Positions 24,861 through 44,436 of a stretch of 64,000 nucleotides of DNA are shown one piece after another. The stretch covers positions 3,472,001 to 3,536,000 of the forward strand of contig NC_091272.1 of NCBI RefSeq assembly GCF_042100115.1, in the 5' to 3' direction. The translations under genes were made by a program, and so were the position numbers. Source of the DNA: Alternaria dauci (lineage: Eukaryota > Ascomycota > Dothideomycetes > Pleosporales > Pleosporaceae). Position 1 is the first letter of the stretch, and each line of letters opens with the position of its first letter. The notes under the pieces were generated by a model. The model did not search any database. It was given only the letters and a program-made list of their open reading frames with translations, and was not told the DNA's origin.

Positions 24861-26285
24861 ATGCGCGTTTCTGCTGTCGTCACAGCTGCCGTCTTGGCTG
24901 GCACTGCTACTGCTGCTCCTACCCCTGGTCTGATCAGCAGCATCCTTGGTCTGCTCACCAACGACATCAACAAGCTTCTCTCCTCTCTGGGTATCCACCT
25001 CCATACTGATGGTGCTAATCACGGCGTCACTGTTCCTTTCCACGACCAGTGCCCGTTCAGCATCCCAGCTGTTGATCTGAGCCCAATTCGCCACAGCCAC
25101 GATATCAACTGGGGAAAGGGTGTCAACGGCGGCAACTTTATCAACTGGAAGACATTCAAGGCCAATGGTGCCAACCTAGGTGGATGGCTGGAGAAGGAGC
25201 AAACCCATGATCCTATCTGGTGGTCTGAGGTCGGCGGCGATGGCGCTCCTGATGAATGGACTCTCTGCCAGAATCTCGGCAGCAAGTGTGCTTCAGTCTT
25301 CGAGGAGCGTTATGCCTCTTTCATCAACACCACGACTATCGACCAGCTTGCCAACGTTGGTGTCAATACCCTTCGCATTCCGCTCACATATGCTGCCTTC
25401 ATCGAAGTTCCTGGCTCCCAGCTTCACCACGGCAACCAATTAAAGTTCCTCAAGACCATCACCGACTACGCTATCAACAAATACGGCATGCACAGTAAGT
25501 CAACCTACCCTGGGCTCATTTTGTAATGCCACTGCTAACAAGCCCTTTCAGTCATTGTCGGTCTTCACTCGCTCCCCGGTGGTGTAAACAACCTCGATAT
25601 TGGCGAGGCACTCTTCCACCAGGACTGGTTCCAAAACTCTACAAACCTTGATTACTCCTTCCAGGCTGTCGACGGTGTTCTCAACTTCATCAAGCAGAGC
25701 GGCCACGTCAACGCCTTTACGATTGCACCCATCAACGAAGCATCCGATAACTTTGCTGGTTTCGGATCTGCTGCTGGCCTGACTATCAACGGAACAAACT
25801 GGATCAATACTTATTTCAGTGGGGTACTCAAGAAGATTGCCAAGGTGGAGAAGCGAATTCCTATGATGATTCAAGACTGCTTCATGGGCGCCAGTTACTG
25901 GGCGCCTTTCTACGATGCATCCCAAAACATCGTCTTCGACTCGCACGTCTACTACTTCGCCGCCGCCGGCACATATGCCGGATACGTCAACCCTGCTGTG
26001 TGCGGCCAAGCTCAATACATTGCTCAGGAGACCAAGTTCCCTGTCTTCATCGGCGAGTGGTCCCTCCAGGCCATGTACAACAACACCCTGGATACCCGCA
26101 AGACCATCTTCGACACTCAGCGCTACGCATGGAACAAGTATTTGGCCGGTGGTGCTTTCTGGAATGGAGTCTCTTACGCAACCACCAAGGTGGATGGAGA
26201 GGGTACCCAGCGCGAGTACTGGAGCTATATTGACTTGATCAACCAAGGTGTTATCACCAAGGTCACAAACGAGTCATATTGTTAG
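24861..26285 (+). CDS. Secreted GH5 exo-beta-1,3-glucanase
   Basis: Two exons, 24861-25494 and 25552-26285, are joined at phase 1 across a 57-nt intron (GTAAGT, branch GCTAACA, acceptor TTTCAG), giving 455 residues. A signal peptide ends near residue 18 (GTATA|AP). The glycoside hydrolase family 5 fold is clear: GANLGGWLEKE near the start of the catalytic domain; NTLRIPLTYAAF; the acid/base glutamate in APINEAS (Glu274); and the nucleophile glutamate in FIGEWS (Glu380). The family (yeast Exg1 type) releases glucose from beta-1,3-glucan in the cell wall. The N-terminal 80-residue extension before the catalytic domain is longer than in Exg1. A role in wall remodelling or glucan nutrition is likely. 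Confidence 0.9.
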
Positions 26286-31343: not shown

Positions 31344-33761
31344 ATGTCTTCTATCCGACTGCGTATCGACGGTCGCATCTTCCGCGATCCTCAGAACCGC
31401 GAAGTTACCCTGCACGGCATCAACTGCGCGGCAGATGCCAAGTTCCCTGCAAAGCCAGATCAACCATCACACATACCAGACAACTTCTTCGACGGAGACA
31501 ATGTGTCCTTCGTTAATCGGCCATTTTCCCTAGAAGATTCGGCCGCCCACTTCTCGCGATTACGCAGCTGGGGCTACAACACCATTCGTTATGTCTTCAC
31601 ATGGGAAGCCATAGAGCACGCGGGACCGGGAAAGTACGACGAGGACTGGATAGACCATACAATTTGTCTACTGCGCAAGGCAAAGGAATATGGCTTCTAC
31701 ATCTTCATGGATCCCCACCAGGACGTCGTAGGTAGCATTCTGGTACACTGCATCACCTTCTCTCTAATACATCGCGTAGTGGTCACGATTCTCTGGAGGG
31801 TCTGGTGCGCCCATGTGGACTCTCTATGCCTGTGGGCTGGACCCCGAGCACTTCGCCGTTACCGAAGCCGCCCTCGTACACAACACATACCCCGAGCCCG
31901 CCACCTATCCCAAGATGATCTGGGCTACCAACTACACACGACTAGTAAACCAAGTCATGTGGACACTCTTCTTTGGCGGCAGGGACTTTGCGCCCAAGGC
32001 TATCATGGACGGCAAGAACATTCAGGACTATCTGCAGGAGCACTACATCGGAGCATGCGAGCACCTCGCCAAGCGGATACAACAGGCCGGTGACTTGTGG
32101 CACGATCCAGTCGTCGGATGGGAAAGCATGAATGAGCCCAACAGGGGCCTCATCAGCTACCAGGACATCACCCAGATCCCGAGCGAACAGAAACTACAGA
32201 AGGGCACTTCACCGACGGCTTGGCAGGCGATACTTACCGGATCGGGTAGAGCTTGCGAGATCTCGACTTGGGACTTTGGCGGGCTGGGGCCGTACAAGAG
32301 CGGCTCCGTATTAGTGGACCCCGAGGGCACCATTGCGTGGCTATCAAAAGATTACGACGACACCAAATACGGCTGGAAACGCGACCCGGGCTGGAAGTTG
32401 GGCGAGTGCTTGTGGGCGCAACACGGCGTCTGGGATCCAGCGACTGATACAGTTCTGAAGAAGGACTATTTCGGAATTGATCCTAAGAATGGGGCCAAGA
32501 TTGATTACGAGTACTTTACGAACCACTACTGGCTACCACATTACCGCGCATACAGCAAGATGGTCAAGTCGATATTCCCAGACTCCCTGATGTTCTTCCA
32601 GCCCCCAGTACTGGAGATACCACCAAAAATCAAAGGCACGGAAGATGATGACCCTAACATTATCTTCTCGCCGCATTTTTACGATGGCATTACTTTAATC
32701 ACTAAGAAATGGTATGTTCCAAGTCACCGAAGCCGGATACTCTCCAGCTAACATGATACAGGAATCGAGTATGGAACGTGGACGTTTTTGGTGTTCTGCG
32801 AGGGAAGTATCTTACGCCAGCGTTCGCCATCAAGATTGGAGAGAATGCCATCAGGAACTGCTTCTCGCACCAGCTCAAGGCAATCCGCGAGGAGGGTGCA
32901 GAGTACATGGGTGTTCATCCTTGCATCTTCACAGAGATTGGTATTCCCTATGACATGGACGACAAGTACGCGTACAAGACTGGCAACTACAGCAGCCAGA
33001 TAGCAGCACTGGACGCGAATCATTTCGCTCTCGAAGACAGTAAAGCTAACGGGTTCGCGTTGTGGACATATGTCGCAAATGTAAGTTTGTCTTCTGTACA
33101 AAGTTGGATGTTGACTGACAAAGACAAGAACTGTCATTTCTGGGGCGATCTTTGGAACGGTGAGGACCTGTCCATCTACTCACTAGACGACAAGGCTGTA
33201 CCAGCCGGCGCCTTCTCACCAGCCGACTCTCGTGCATCACTCGACATCAACTCACCCACCTATTCGAGAGCGCAATCGACCGACACCCTGAGTATCAGTC
33301 CTTCCAATCTGCAGAAGACCATTACGACGGAACGAATGAGTTCGACAAAGGACGAAGGTGATGTTCGGGGTCTGCGCGCAGCAGAAGCCTTCATCCGCCC
33401 CACTCCTGTTGCAGTTCACGGGGACATCTCATCGTATGGGTTTGATCTCAAGAGCTGTACTTTTAAGCTTGCGCTCGCTGCGCCAAGCTCGACAGCAGAG
33501 GAATTCCCTACGATCTGTTATCTCCCAGAGTTTCACTTCCCGTCAGGACAGACCAGCGTCGAAGTTAGCGGTGGCAAGTGGACCATTACGTCCGAGGAGA
33601 TAAATGGCGCATTGCAGCAGACGCTGCGGTGGTGGCATGCAGAAGGTGACCAAGTCATCACAGTGAAAGGCGTCGTGCGAAAGGCAGGCAGCGCATTGGG
33701 TACGGAAGAGGACGAAGGGTACCTGCAGCAGTGCCAGAGGCAGGCTTGCGTTGTCATGTAA
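31344..33761 (+). CDS. GH5 steryl-beta-glucosidase/EGCrP-like hydrolase with C-terminal CaaX box
   Basis: Exons are 31344-31727, 31780-32711, 32762-33080 and 33129-33761, encoding 755 residues. There is no signal peptide. The GH5 core contains LHGINCAADAKFP, YNTIRYVFTWEAIEH, FMDPHQDVWSRFSGG, the acid/base motif WESMNEPNRG and the nucleophile region IFTEIGIPYDM. The family includes the yeast cytosolic Egh1 steryl-beta-glucosidase and Cryptococcus EGCrP glucosylceramidases. The 755-residue length is close to Egh1, so a sterol-glucoside substrate is favoured but not proven. The C-terminal 200 residues form a beta-rich domain. The very last residues are QACVVM, a textbook CaaX prenylation box. 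The last intron (33081-33128, 48 nt) is a multiple of three without stops, so its retention would also be translatable. Confidence 0.88.
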
Positions 33762-34401: not shown

Positions 34402-37400
34402 ATGAATGTTGGCGCAGACCAAGCCCCGCAAACAAATGGCGGCGACGGCGCACAGCACCAGCACCAACACCAACACCACAGCGCCAACGGAGACTCTGAC
34501 CTCTCCCAAATACTAGAGGCGCTGCAGGCCATCTACGCAAAAGACTCGACCAATGATACCCGCCGACAGGCAACCGAATACCTCGAGCAAGCGAAACGGC
34601 ACCCCGAAGCGCCTTCCCATGGTCACACGCTCGCTCTCGACCGCTCGCAGCCGGTGCCCCTCCGCTACTATGGCCTCACTATGCTGGAATACTCGATCAA
34701 GTACAGCTGGGAAGATCTCACTGTGGACCAGGGAACCGTCTTGAGAGGCTATGCGATCGATCTGGCACAGAATGTGTCTGAAAGCGAGCCCGTCTTCATC
34801 AGGAACAAGATCGCGCAGTTGTGGACAGAGGTTGCGAAGCGCAGCTGGGGTGCCGAGTGGCTGGACATGGACCGGCTGCTCGTCTCACTGTGGTCGACCT
34901 CGCTGCACCACCAGGCTGTAGTGCTATACATCCTGGAAACGCTTTCCGAGGAGGTTTTCAATCGCGAAGACGCAACGGCAGGCCTTCGGGGCAGCGACTT
35001 GGGACGAGCATGTGTCGAGATCTTCACGCCGCTCTTCGTCATACAAGAACAACTCCCTACACGCGAGAAGAGTCTTGAAGTGCGGTGTGGGGACGAAGGG
35101 TGGCTGAGGAGGCTATGCGACAATTTGGTTTGGTGCTTGGGGCAGGACTACCAGAATCAAGAGGCTGTCAAAGCGAACGCCATCAAGACCATGCATGCGC
35201 TCAAGGCGGCTATGCCATGGATTATGCCCAAGGCCATTGCTGCGACACAAGTCATCGAGGCCGTCTGTAAGGCGCTGGCTACCCCTGCCGTGGAGATGCA
35301 GATTGTAAGTCGCGTCTCACTCCCTACAAAATACACAGCCGCTGACACGAACAGGCCGCCGTCGAGACTCTCCAAGCCATCTACAACCGAACACACCTTC
35401 ACGACGACGAGTTTGTGGAGCTTGTTTGCCCCATGTTCACACCCGGCAGTGTTTCACTCCTGCGAGAAGTATACAACTGGACACTCACGGACATGGATGT
35501 GAATGACATAGATGACCAGAAATATATGCTCTGCAAGAGACTTTCAGAAGTACGACTCCAGCCACTCTTCACACTCACAATGTCTTGCTAATAATATCAG
35601 TTGGCTAATAGCCTCGGACTCTTCATCGAGCAAAAGCCCCAGTCGATACCCGATGGCAGTGACCTAGCGGGCATGTTTGGTTTCCTATACGAAATCATGC
35701 GCAACCCAAGCCTTGTCGTCTCTATACCTGTCCTTCACTGCTGGACAAAATTGCTACGATTGAGCATTGTGCGGGACTCTGATGTCGTCAACTCCATGGT
35801 CGGAGGACTACTCGAGACCTGTTGCGCTCGACTTATCCGATACGAATCATTGCCAGAAGATACTGAAGACATCACATTGCAATTTCTCAACGAAGACATT
35901 GATACAGTCCCGGAGCGCCATGCCTTTTTGGGTAACTACCGCAGGTTTTGCGCTGACGTGATCGAAGTCCTGGTTCGCAAAACGCCAGTTGAAGCAATGG
36001 AGCATATCCTTGCTCAAGCAACAAGCATGCTTCAAAACCTGTACAATGGTCAGCCCTCTTTCCAGCGCCAGACCTTTACCAAGAATTCTCCACAAGTTCT
36101 GCAGGTCGATGCGCAAGTTACTGTCATCGAAGCTGTACTCAAGGGATACATGAAGTGGCAGCAGGGGCAAGGAGAAGACGCGCAAGACAATGAACGGACG
36201 CGCAACACCCTTGAAGACTCACTCGAACAGTGGGGCAGGCAGATTTTGCAAGCCCAGTTTGAAGACCCTGAAGTCGCAAGAAAGATAATTTCCTTAATGG
36301 CAACACTCTCAACAAAAGCTCTGGGCGACCGGCCGGGTTTCGCCCTTACCTTCCTGGAGTATATGCTTACAATACGGCTAGCCGATGACACAAACTACCC
36401 ACAGTACTCCGATTCTGTCAAAGACCTCGAGCGCATATGCAGTCTTGAGATGCAGAAACTAGCCATGAAGTTTGCTGACGACTTCATGAGCGTCTACGAG
36501 CAACTAGAAGCCAAGGTCAATGAGATGATTAATGACCCAACGACTGATGAACGCCAACGTATGGCCTACTCCGCTTTTCTTTTCATCATCATACATAGAT
36601 GTACAACTTTAGAGCGCGCCACACAAGAAGAGCGCATGAGGCAGATGCTCAACAGTGTCAAGGATGCTTGGCGCAACGATGAGTTCACCAACGCAATCTC
36701 TTCATTTCAATCTTTTTGTGGCGTGCTGGGCATGGGTCAATTACCCGAGTTCATGTCTGCGAACAACTTCCGTGGCGTTCAGGACTGGTCTGAGCAACAA
36801 CTGCCTAGTGATGGCCAGGCATTGCAGGCTTCAATCCTTGAGCGCTCCCAACATCTGCCACTGCGACTCACCAAGACGCTACTGGCAGCATCGACGGAGA
36901 AGCTTCGCGATGGTACTGCTGCGTATGAGACCGCCGCCGTACTATGGGCTGAAACTATACCGGTGCTGCTCCCCAATCTTCTTCAGCTTGTGAGCCATGC
37001 GCAAGCATTCAACGACATTGAGAGTAACTGGTCGCACTTACCGGTAGAGCTACAGCAGGTTATTCGGAGAGTGTTGACAGATCGGTTCTGGCAAGCTGGT
37101 ATATCGACAGAGAGCAGGGATGACTTCTTTGCGAGAGTCAGTGGCTCCAAGTCGACGTATGAGGGTTTCGCTTCGACAGTACGAGGCACTGTACGACAGA
37201 TTAGGGAGAGCTCGTACTACATACTCTACTCGCTGACGCGATTCCGAGACTTCTTCTACGGCATACAAGACCTGCCAGGACCGCTGAGTCAAGCACTATT
37301 CGGCCATGCTGGAGCTTTGACTGCACATCATCTGTCCGTTCTGCTGACAGTATCAACCCATCTCATCGAAGGTTGCCCAGCGCGATTACGGCCGCATTTC

Positions 37401-43504: not shown

Positions 43505-44266
43505 GCAGTCGCGCTGCGTCTTGCATTGGTCTTGCATAGAAGATGTGTATGATATCCCCGATTTCATGGAGATAGATGCCTGAGGTAGATCTGGATGCGC
43601 TTTGACATAGGTAGCTGAAAGGATATTACGACTCTTATGGCGAGTGTTGAAGGAATGCATCGCCCGAGGGCAAATGCAACTAGTGATGAAGCCTGCCATT
43701 ATAAGATACTTGTAAATGATACACACGATGCGAATCGCGGAGAGTTGATGAAGTTGTCGACGAGGCCCGACACCTTCAGTGAGGAGGAGCGCGCCAGCAG
43801 CCTTGCCCCCAAACTGCGCCGAGGAGCCTGACGAATCAGCGCCTTCGCATCCAAAGGAGCGGGTAAAGGGGCAATTATTCGCCTCTGGCACTGGAAAAAA
43901 GGAATGCTGTGACTTAAAAGGCTCAAAGAGATTTCTCCTGCTTGTCGTTGGAACACATTACGGTTATGCTTGACACCAGCGTGTCTGCGCAGCCATGTGC
44001 CCTTGAGATTTGTGGCCTCAGCAATTTGATGCCACGTCCATGACCCCGCGTCGCGCGATTATCTGGCTGGCAGACTGATTGGCTAGCTTCCAGGAAGCCC
44101 GGATTGCATCACGAGATCATGTATCAACAGTCCCCACAGTCTGATTTATCGTTAACGAGTAAAAACCCACAGAAAATGTGAAGTGAGGTCTATATATGCA
44201 AAATTTGCGCCTCTATTCATCGAACAAACAACCATCTGCTTACGTCATATGACGCTAAGAGCAATA
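43505..44266. other. Intergenic region upstream of the tRNA
   Basis: There is no supported coding sequence; short frames on both strands at 43637-43973 overlap one another. A TATATAT motif at 44191-44197 lies about 70 bp before the tRNA 5' end and could help position Pol III. Confidence 0.45.
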
Positions 44267-44303
44267 TCTTCGATGGTCTAGTGGTCATGATTTCCGCTTG
44301 TCA

Positions 44304-44322
44304 AGTCTTCTGGATTTACAAG
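44304..44322 (+). other. Canonical tRNA intron in the anticodon loop
   Basis: Nineteen nucleotides follow base 37 and are of the kind removed by the tRNA splicing endonuclease. Without them the loop reads TTGTCAC, the usual Asp anticodon loop. Confidence 0.8.
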
Positions 44323-44338
44323 CGCGGGAGACCGGGGT

Positions 44339-44391
44339 GTAAGTGAAAACCTAATCTGAATCACCATAAATATCTTCTAACATCGCACCAG
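44339..44391 (+). other. Spliceosomal-like intron inside the tRNA T-loop
   Basis: Fifty-three nucleotides with a GTAAGT donor, a CTAAC branch motif at about 44377-44381 and a CAG acceptor. Length and motifs match mRNA introns in the neighbouring genes (48 to 60 nt). Confidence 0.75.
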
Positions 44392-44428
44392 TCGATTCCC
44401 CGTCGGAGAGCTTATCAGACGTTCATTC

Positions 44429-44436
44429 TTTTTTTT
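44429..44436 (+). terminator. Pol III T8 terminator
   Basis: A run of eight T on the coding strand, 18 nt after the tRNA 3' end, is a strong RNA polymerase III stop. Confidence 0.8.

Follow-up and report, generated by a model that had tools for sequence, protein, structure and literature searches.

Candidate spliceosomal introns in nuclear tRNA genes of a Pleosporales fungus, including all tRNA-Gln genes found

A tRNA-Asp(GTC) gene in the genome of this Pleosporales fungus (34.9 Mb, 10 contigs) is interrupted in its T-loop by a 53-nt insert, which we read, with a probability of roughly 0.86, as a U2-type spliceosomal intron, one of at least 25 in at least 18 nuclear tRNA genes. The gene lies in the window, the whole stretch of 64,000 nucleotides that was analysed (C1:3472001-3536000). 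A DnaJ-TPR protein encoded there has 93% identity to a JGI protein and, among the named matches, 90% to one of Stemphylium lycopersici, 88% to one of Bipolaris sorokiniana and 87% to one of Decorospora gaudefroyi, which very likely places the fungus in the Pleosporaceae. It is likely, at a lower level of confidence, that spliceosomal introns have spread so far through the nuclear tRNA genes that making all glutamine tRNA, and probably several other isoacceptors, requires the spliceosome to act on Pol III pre-tRNAs alongside the endonuclease, and that introns splitting the B box survive partly as some of them provide a replacement. Judged from the gene sequences, this suggests that the fungus needs its mRNA-splicing machinery for some of its tRNAs.

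In the proposed pathway, the interrupted genes would most likely be transcribed by Pol III, as indicated by their A box, T-run terminators and upstream motifs, which are like those of intact genes. The spliceosome would remove the introns of the D arm, anticodon and T arm by their 5' splice site, CTAAY and AG, and the separate intron at 37|38 would be removed by the tRNA endonuclease and ligase, in an order of steps that is conjectural. Where the B box is split, some introns would bring one of their own.

Table 1. Features of the window, and inserts in the 18 interrupted tRNA genes
Feature	Window coordinates	Strand	tRNA position	Details
tRNA-Asp(GTC) gene	44267..44410	+		144 nt; 72 nt without both introns; sequence reading and ARAGORN
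Exon 1 of tRNA-Asp	44267..44303	+	1-37	acceptor 5' strand, D arm, anticodon GTC
A box, in D arm	44274-44284	+		
Canonical tRNA intron	44304..44322	+	37|38	19 nt; not GT..AG; ARAGORN i(38,19)
Exon 2 of tRNA-Asp	44323..44338	+	38-54	
Spliceosomal-type intron	44339..44391	+	T54/T55	53 nt; GTAAGT ... CTAAC ... CAG
Branch-site motif CTAAC	44377..44381	+		11 nt before 3' splice site
Exon 3 of tRNA-Asp	44392..44410	+	55-73	T-loop remainder, T-stem 3' strand, acceptor 3' strand, discriminator G
TATATAT	44191..44197	+		starts 27 nt upstream of start-like motif
CATCGAA, start-like CATC motif	44218..44224	+		
T8, Pol III terminator	44429..44436	+		
Candidate mRNA intron	25495..25551	+		57 nt; GTAAGT..GCTAAC..CAG; joins two long open frames
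Candidate mRNA intron	32712..32761	+		50 nt; GTATGT..GCTAAC..CAG
Candidate mRNA intron	35305..35354	+		50 nt; GTAAGT..GCTGAC..CAG
Asp-GTC, window			T54|55	53 nt
Leu-CAA L042			D loop; T54|55	49 nt; 55 nt
Gly-CCC L043			T54|55	50 nt
Pro-TGG L045			34|35; T54|55	55 nt; 53 nt
Pro-CGG L094			34|35	56 nt
Arg-CCT L069 (= L079)			T53|54	51 nt
Ile-AAT L070			T52|53	55 nt
Thr-TGT L071			11|12	52 nt
Ser-CGA L073			T53|54	50 nt
Arg-TCG L074			T53|54	52 nt
Lys-CTT L126			T57|58	50 nt
Gln-TTG L130			11|12; T57|58	51 nt; 51 nt
Gln-TTG L131			11|12; T57|58	53 nt; 52 nt
Gln-CTG L132			11|12; T57|58	52 nt; 48 nt
Gln-CTG L133			11|12; T57|58	50 nt; 51 nt
Gln-CTG L134			11|12; T57|58	50 nt; 51 nt
Ser-GCT, beside L052			13|14	52 nt; GC..AG
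Arg-ACG, beside L098			T55|56	54 nt

The tRNA-Asp gene of the window

The preliminary description had read this gene as a tRNA-Asp(GTC) with acceptor stem, A box, GTC anticodon and T8 terminator, and both the sequence and ARAGORN, after insert removal, agree with it (Table 1). The acceptor is TCTTCGA..TCGGAGA. The canonical intron of 19 nt is present as described, and ARAGORN finds the same one. The additional insert reads GTAAGT...TTCTAACATCGCACCAG and sits exactly at the junction that had been named; its removal gives GGGGTTCGATTCCCC. That exact removal restores the T-loop was also correct: among 17 cuts tried (shifts of -8 to +8), the GT..AG cut was unique in giving 5/5 T-stem pairs and a TTCRA loop. 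ARAGORN left the gene uncalled as it stands, and called tRNA-Asp(gtc) with a 19-nt intron when the insert was removed. Over the whole window, ARAGORN called no tRNA, and Rfam gave no match at gathering score, group I and group II ribozyme families included. A length of 53 nt is too short for the core of a group I or II ribozyme.

The insert had further been said to carry the same signals as the mRNA introns of neighbouring genes, and candidate mRNA introns with such signals are present in the window. These candidates, known from sequence alone, joined long open frames and were ranked without the branch site. There were 12 junctions, seven of them with a branch site (49, 50, 50, 54, 57, 101 and 128 nt); the tRNA-gene inserts are 48-56 nt long, compared with 49-57 nt in five of these seven.

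The window copy may or may not yield a working tRNA: the gene has retained arms, terminator and upstream motifs, yet its B box is split, as the preliminary description stated, and the insert holds no replacement (best score -0.4, p 0.375). Comparison with the other tRNA-Asp genes, which had been proposed as a check, found five Asp(GTC) paralogs in the genome, all free of the insert. Because of these paralogs and the missing replacement B box, inactivation of this one gene alone by a spliceosomal intron or mobile element keeps an appreciable, if minor, likelihood. According to the available part of PMC4090602, insertions in the D or T arm of eukaryotic tRNA genes mostly affect a single gene out of a large synonymous set, and such genes are regarded as pseudogenes. 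The state of the gene argues against this, since it keeps 7/7 acceptor and 5/5 T-stem pairs after insert removal, the TATA and CATC pair upstream and the T8 run, and two of its acceptor pairs are changed on both strands relative to the other Asp genes (A-T to G-C and G-C to A-T).

Interrupted tRNA genes in the genome

We read 93 nuclear tRNA genes, counted by script through the 5' exons of fetched loci, and 18 of them carry inserts (25 in total) in the D arm, anticodon or T arm. The interrupted genes are spread over contigs C1, C2, C3, C4, C5, C7 and C8. Nine insert positions were found (11|12, 13|14, D loop, 34|35, 52|53, 53|54, 54|55, 55|56 and 57|58), none of which is the canonical 37|38. 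Several genes were read by hand. The survey of tRNA genes is incomplete, which makes 18 genes and 25 inserts lower bounds; out of 931 candidates, 63 were scored in the Rfam tRNA search, and the set of 93 has no gene for Trp, His, Val-AAC, Gly-TCC, Pro-AGG, Lys-TTT or Ile-TAT. Canonical introns at 37|38 occur in many nuclear tRNA genes, such as Ala-AGC, one Gly-GCC type, Glu-CTC, Phe and Tyr.

Six of the 18 genes, the window gene included, were first found through splice signals, and the other 12 came from 87 genes found otherwise. A T54|T55 pattern with splice signals matched five places (reversed control 0), four of which are tRNA genes (window, L042, L043 and L045); the fifth, L046, is not tRNA-like. 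The corresponding 53|54 pattern matched nine places against four in the control and gave three tRNA genes (L073, L074 and L079, the last identical with L069). A pattern of the 54|55 3' exon followed by a T-run matched 50 places against 27, where the four genes already known were the only tRNA-like ones; the further places L110-L112 were rejected on reading. The Rfam search found Arg-CCT L069; Ile-AAT L070 and Thr-TGT L071 came from its matches under the cut-off. Two patterns of B box and terminator matched 55 places (control 4) and 135 places (control 47), the second read among the matches listed, and led to Pro-CGG L094 and to the neighbouring Arg-ACG (by L098) and Ser-GCT (by L052), these two pointed to by weak model hits and then read by eye. 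With a D-arm/anticodon pattern, 13 places were matched (control 0), namely six Lys genes including L126, four Phe and three Tyr genes. A second such pattern matched 30 places against 35 in the control, and was useful solely because its Gln matches could be read; it yielded the five tRNA-Gln genes L130-L134. Prokaryote and viral contigs were scanned for exact matches and, as expected, had none.

Several loci were set aside. L081 (C1:347180-347680), with a long GC-rich stretch in the region of the anticodon loop, and L095 (C4:1060570-1061070) are tRNA-like and were left out of all counts. Dropped as not tRNA-like were L041, L046, L072, L075-L078, L080, L083, L089, L096, L108-L116 and L140-L143, among which L109 contains no more than the beginning of a Gly gene already known. 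Apart from the 93 nuclear genes, 17 further Rfam hits at C3:3344-3400 kb (L002, L003, L009-L011, L016, L019-L024) are AT-rich and of mitochondrial type. This cluster sits close to one end of contig C3 (3.445 Mb) and has one tRNA twice on opposite strands (L002 and L003); it would be either a mitochondrial genome fused to a nuclear contig or a large copy of one in the nucleus. Upstream of each of the two elongator tRNA-Met genes found (L084 and L106) stands a partial, tRNA-like copy of that gene's 5' half.

Removal of the inserts gives 7/7 acceptor pairs, 5/5 T-stem pairs and a TTCRANN T-loop in 18/18 genes. For inserts of the T arm, the GT..AG cut restores the arm in 15/15 cases; 12 of 240 shifted cuts also do so, and 10 of these 12 are a one-base slide with the same product. 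ARAGORN was correct for 0/18 genes as they stand (17 uncalled, one called Thr), which would explain why genes of this kind can escape standard tRNA finders. After the inserts were removed, all 18 were called tRNA, 15 of them with the expected anticodon, and the remaining three (Leu, Pro-TGG and Arg-TCG) received it once the canonical intron was also taken out. When all introns are removed, ARAGORN gives no anticodon for the five Gln genes, Ser-GCT and Ser-CGA, because our borders of the canonical intron in these seven genes are one base off relative to ARAGORN; the inserts are unaffected.

Empty sites are present in the same genome. Leu-CAA L042 without its two inserts agrees with the intact L102 in 117 of 121 positions, a count that covers the canonical intron, and the exons of Lys-CTT L126 equal those of five intact Lys genes at 73/73 positions. 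These are presence/absence pairs within one genome. The identity of the Lys exons suggests a recent event, and with one of the six Lys-CTT genes found carrying the insert, intron gain becomes testable. Ile L070 differs from the intact Ile genes by two double T-stem changes that keep pairing (GCGAG/CTCGT to GAGGG/CCCTT); such paired changes, here and in the acceptor of the window Asp gene, could predate the inserts. In comparisons between inserts, the shuffle maximum of 0.75 was exceeded by pairs among the five Gln genes alone. An introner origin was rejected, since inserts outside the Gln genes are no more alike than shuffles; the genome search for copies that had been suggested matched the window stretch to itself alone (search not exhaustive), with no near-identical family.

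Each of the five tRNA-Gln genes found, of which two are TTG and three CTG, has inserts at 11|12 and 57|58 besides the canonical intron. No intact tRNA-Gln gene was found by two patterns and the B-box lists, the second of these read among the matches listed; these searches define the set, and an unusual intact Gln gene could be missed. A Gln 21-mer with up to 3 mismatches gave the five genes at 0 mismatches and three places at 3 mismatches (control 2). On reading, these three places were not tRNA genes, nor was one further exact match of the second D-arm/anticodon pattern. In the T-loop inserts of the Gln genes, the invariant columns are chiefly GT.AG and CTAAC, plus four single columns. Identity between TTG and CTG genes is 44% in the T-loop inserts and 26% in the D-stem inserts, and 85% in the exons, where the differences include paired changes in the anticodon stem as well as at positions 5 and 6 of the acceptor. 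The codons CAA and CAG are read by tRNA-Gln alone. As all genes found for it carry inserts, the inserts must be removed in the cell, barring a missed intact gene; this removal should not be optional. Two Gln loci have additional elements downstream: L134 (C8:593420-593700), a CTG gene, is followed by a partial second copy of its own 3' end with B box and T-run, and L130 (C2:3066420-3066690), a TTG gene, has a B-box-like GTTCGATTC between gene end and terminator.

The preliminary description had offered a recently mobile intron that inactivated the copy as the other possibility. As an account of the class, inactivation fails, because no intact Gln gene was found in these searches and the non-Gln inserts are no more alike than shuffles; as an explanation overall it is improbable, and it keeps its minor likelihood for the single Asp gene. 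The spliceosomal-type reading, made there for one gene, is extended by the survey to 18 of the 93 tRNA genes read.

Splice signals and promoter elements

All 25 inserts are GT/GC..AG with a G[TC]DNG 5' end, one of them GC..AG (Ser-GCT). A YTRAY branch site lies 9-14 nt from the 3' end in 24/25, against a shuffle rate of 0.065, so the signal is beyond chance. In the 12 genes found without splice-motif patterns, the 17 inserts are GT/GC..AG in 17/17 and have YTRAY in 16/17 (shuffle rate 0.067), in comparison with 0/15 and 1/15 for the canonical introns of the same 18 genes. In Gln-TTG L131 the T insert ends in AAG and the D insert has no YTRAY near its end.

These signals bear on a second explanation, that the inserts are non-canonical tRNA introns with a bulge-helix-bulge, cut by the tRNA splicing endonuclease as in the red alga Cyanidioschyzon merolae. 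The insert positions resemble those reported for that alga in the accessible portion of PMC9602550, and some precursors fold accordingly, the predicted fold of the Gln-CTG precursors pairing both insert ends. A relaxed bulge-helix-bulge scan matched 2/25 inserts where 2.66 were expected from shuffles, in a test of low power that matched 2/15 canonical introns (0.70 expected). Removal through a bulge-helix-bulge needs no GT, no branch motif at 9-14 nt and no AG, yet all but one of the inserts have them and the canonical introns do not. We regard this explanation as quite unlikely.

Inserts at 54|55, 55|56 and 57|58 split the B box in 11 cases. Four of these 11 have a B box of their own scoring within the range of intact genes: TGTTCGATTCA in Lys L126, CGTTCGATTCC in Gln-CTG L132, and CGTTCAATTCC in L133 and L134, the inserts of the three Gln genes being homologous to one another. 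Pro-TGG (GGTTCGACATC) and Gly-CCC (TATTCGAATCA) have intermediate matches below the intact range, and five of the 11, the window included, have no or a weak B box, which rules out replacement as a general rule. B-box scores differ between splitting and other inserts (p = 0.026), and Fisher's method over nine splitting inserts, with one Gln-CTG only, gives p = 1e-4. Taken as a set, the remaining 14 inserts likewise tend to exceed shuffles (p = 0.048), and two of them, the D inserts of L131 and L132, have good matches.

Upstream of the interrupted genes, the CATC motif is present in 12 of the 17 scored (53/72 intact genes; shuffles 2.6/17), and CATC with a TATA element at the right distance in five of 17 (29/72 intact; shuffles 0.2/17). 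Gln L130 had too little upstream DNA to be among the 17; the window gene has both elements. T-runs follow the insert-bearing genes. In nuclear tRNA genes the T-run is often followed by GC (TTTTTGC).

Pol II transcripts are the usual place of spliceosomal introns, and the interrupted genes might accordingly be spliced non-coding RNAs of Pol II from which tRNAs are cut. The T-runs, the upstream motifs occurring as in intact genes, and the B box within some inserts speak against this, and we give it as little credit as the endonuclease explanation. An assembly or sequencing artefact is hardly conceivable with 25 inserts in 18 genes on seven contigs, each at an exact exon junction.

Comparison with known systems

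Textbooks assign the removal of tRNA introns to a dedicated endonuclease and ligase. If spliceosomal introns are confirmed here, an essential tRNA family would depend on the spliceosome, joining mRNA splicing to translation, and the genome would offer many natural Pol III substrates of the spliceosome, together with cases of intron gain for which duplicated genes preserve the exact empty site. The preliminary description knew of no described case in a T-loop, and our literature search, which stopped short of preprints and most subscription journals, likewise found no described spliceosomal intron in any tRNA gene.

The inserts have the GT/GC 5' site, CTAAY, AG and length of about 50 nt of U2-type introns in fungal mRNA genes, as seen in the candidate mRNA introns of the window. 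They differ in their host, which is a tRNA gene, with splice sites in the D stem, D loop, anticodon and T arm. With introner-like elements they share the occurrence of many introns in one genome, but no near-identical copy family was seen. Spliceosomal introns occur in fungal U6 snRNA and rRNA genes, and U6 is a Pol III transcript. Those introns are also of mRNA type in a non-coding RNA, in the case of U6 one made by Pol III; here, in contrast, many tRNA genes are concerned, with up to two inserts per gene besides the canonical intron, among them every gene found for one essential tRNA. The available text of PMC11782384 cites a reference on an mRNA-type intron in nuclear 18S rDNA of deuteromycetes.

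In position, the inserts resemble non-canonical tRNA introns of C. merolae, nucleomorphs and archaea. The excerpt available of PMC9602550 gives introns at 12/13, 37/38 and 53/54 for C. merolae tRNA-Ile(UAU), and that of PMC4033280 lists tRNA genes with multiple introns among eukaryotes for C. merolae. In the passages available of PMC9602550 and PMC4090602, the archaeal and C. merolae non-canonical introns are described as endonuclease substrates with a bulge-helix-bulge, and the latter review states the mode of removal of nucleomorph tRNA introns as unknown. As far as these partial sources go, both groups have introns in the D arm, anticodon and T arm, extra introns besides the one at 37|38, and up to three introns per gene; the difference is that the inserts described here carry spliceosomal signals.
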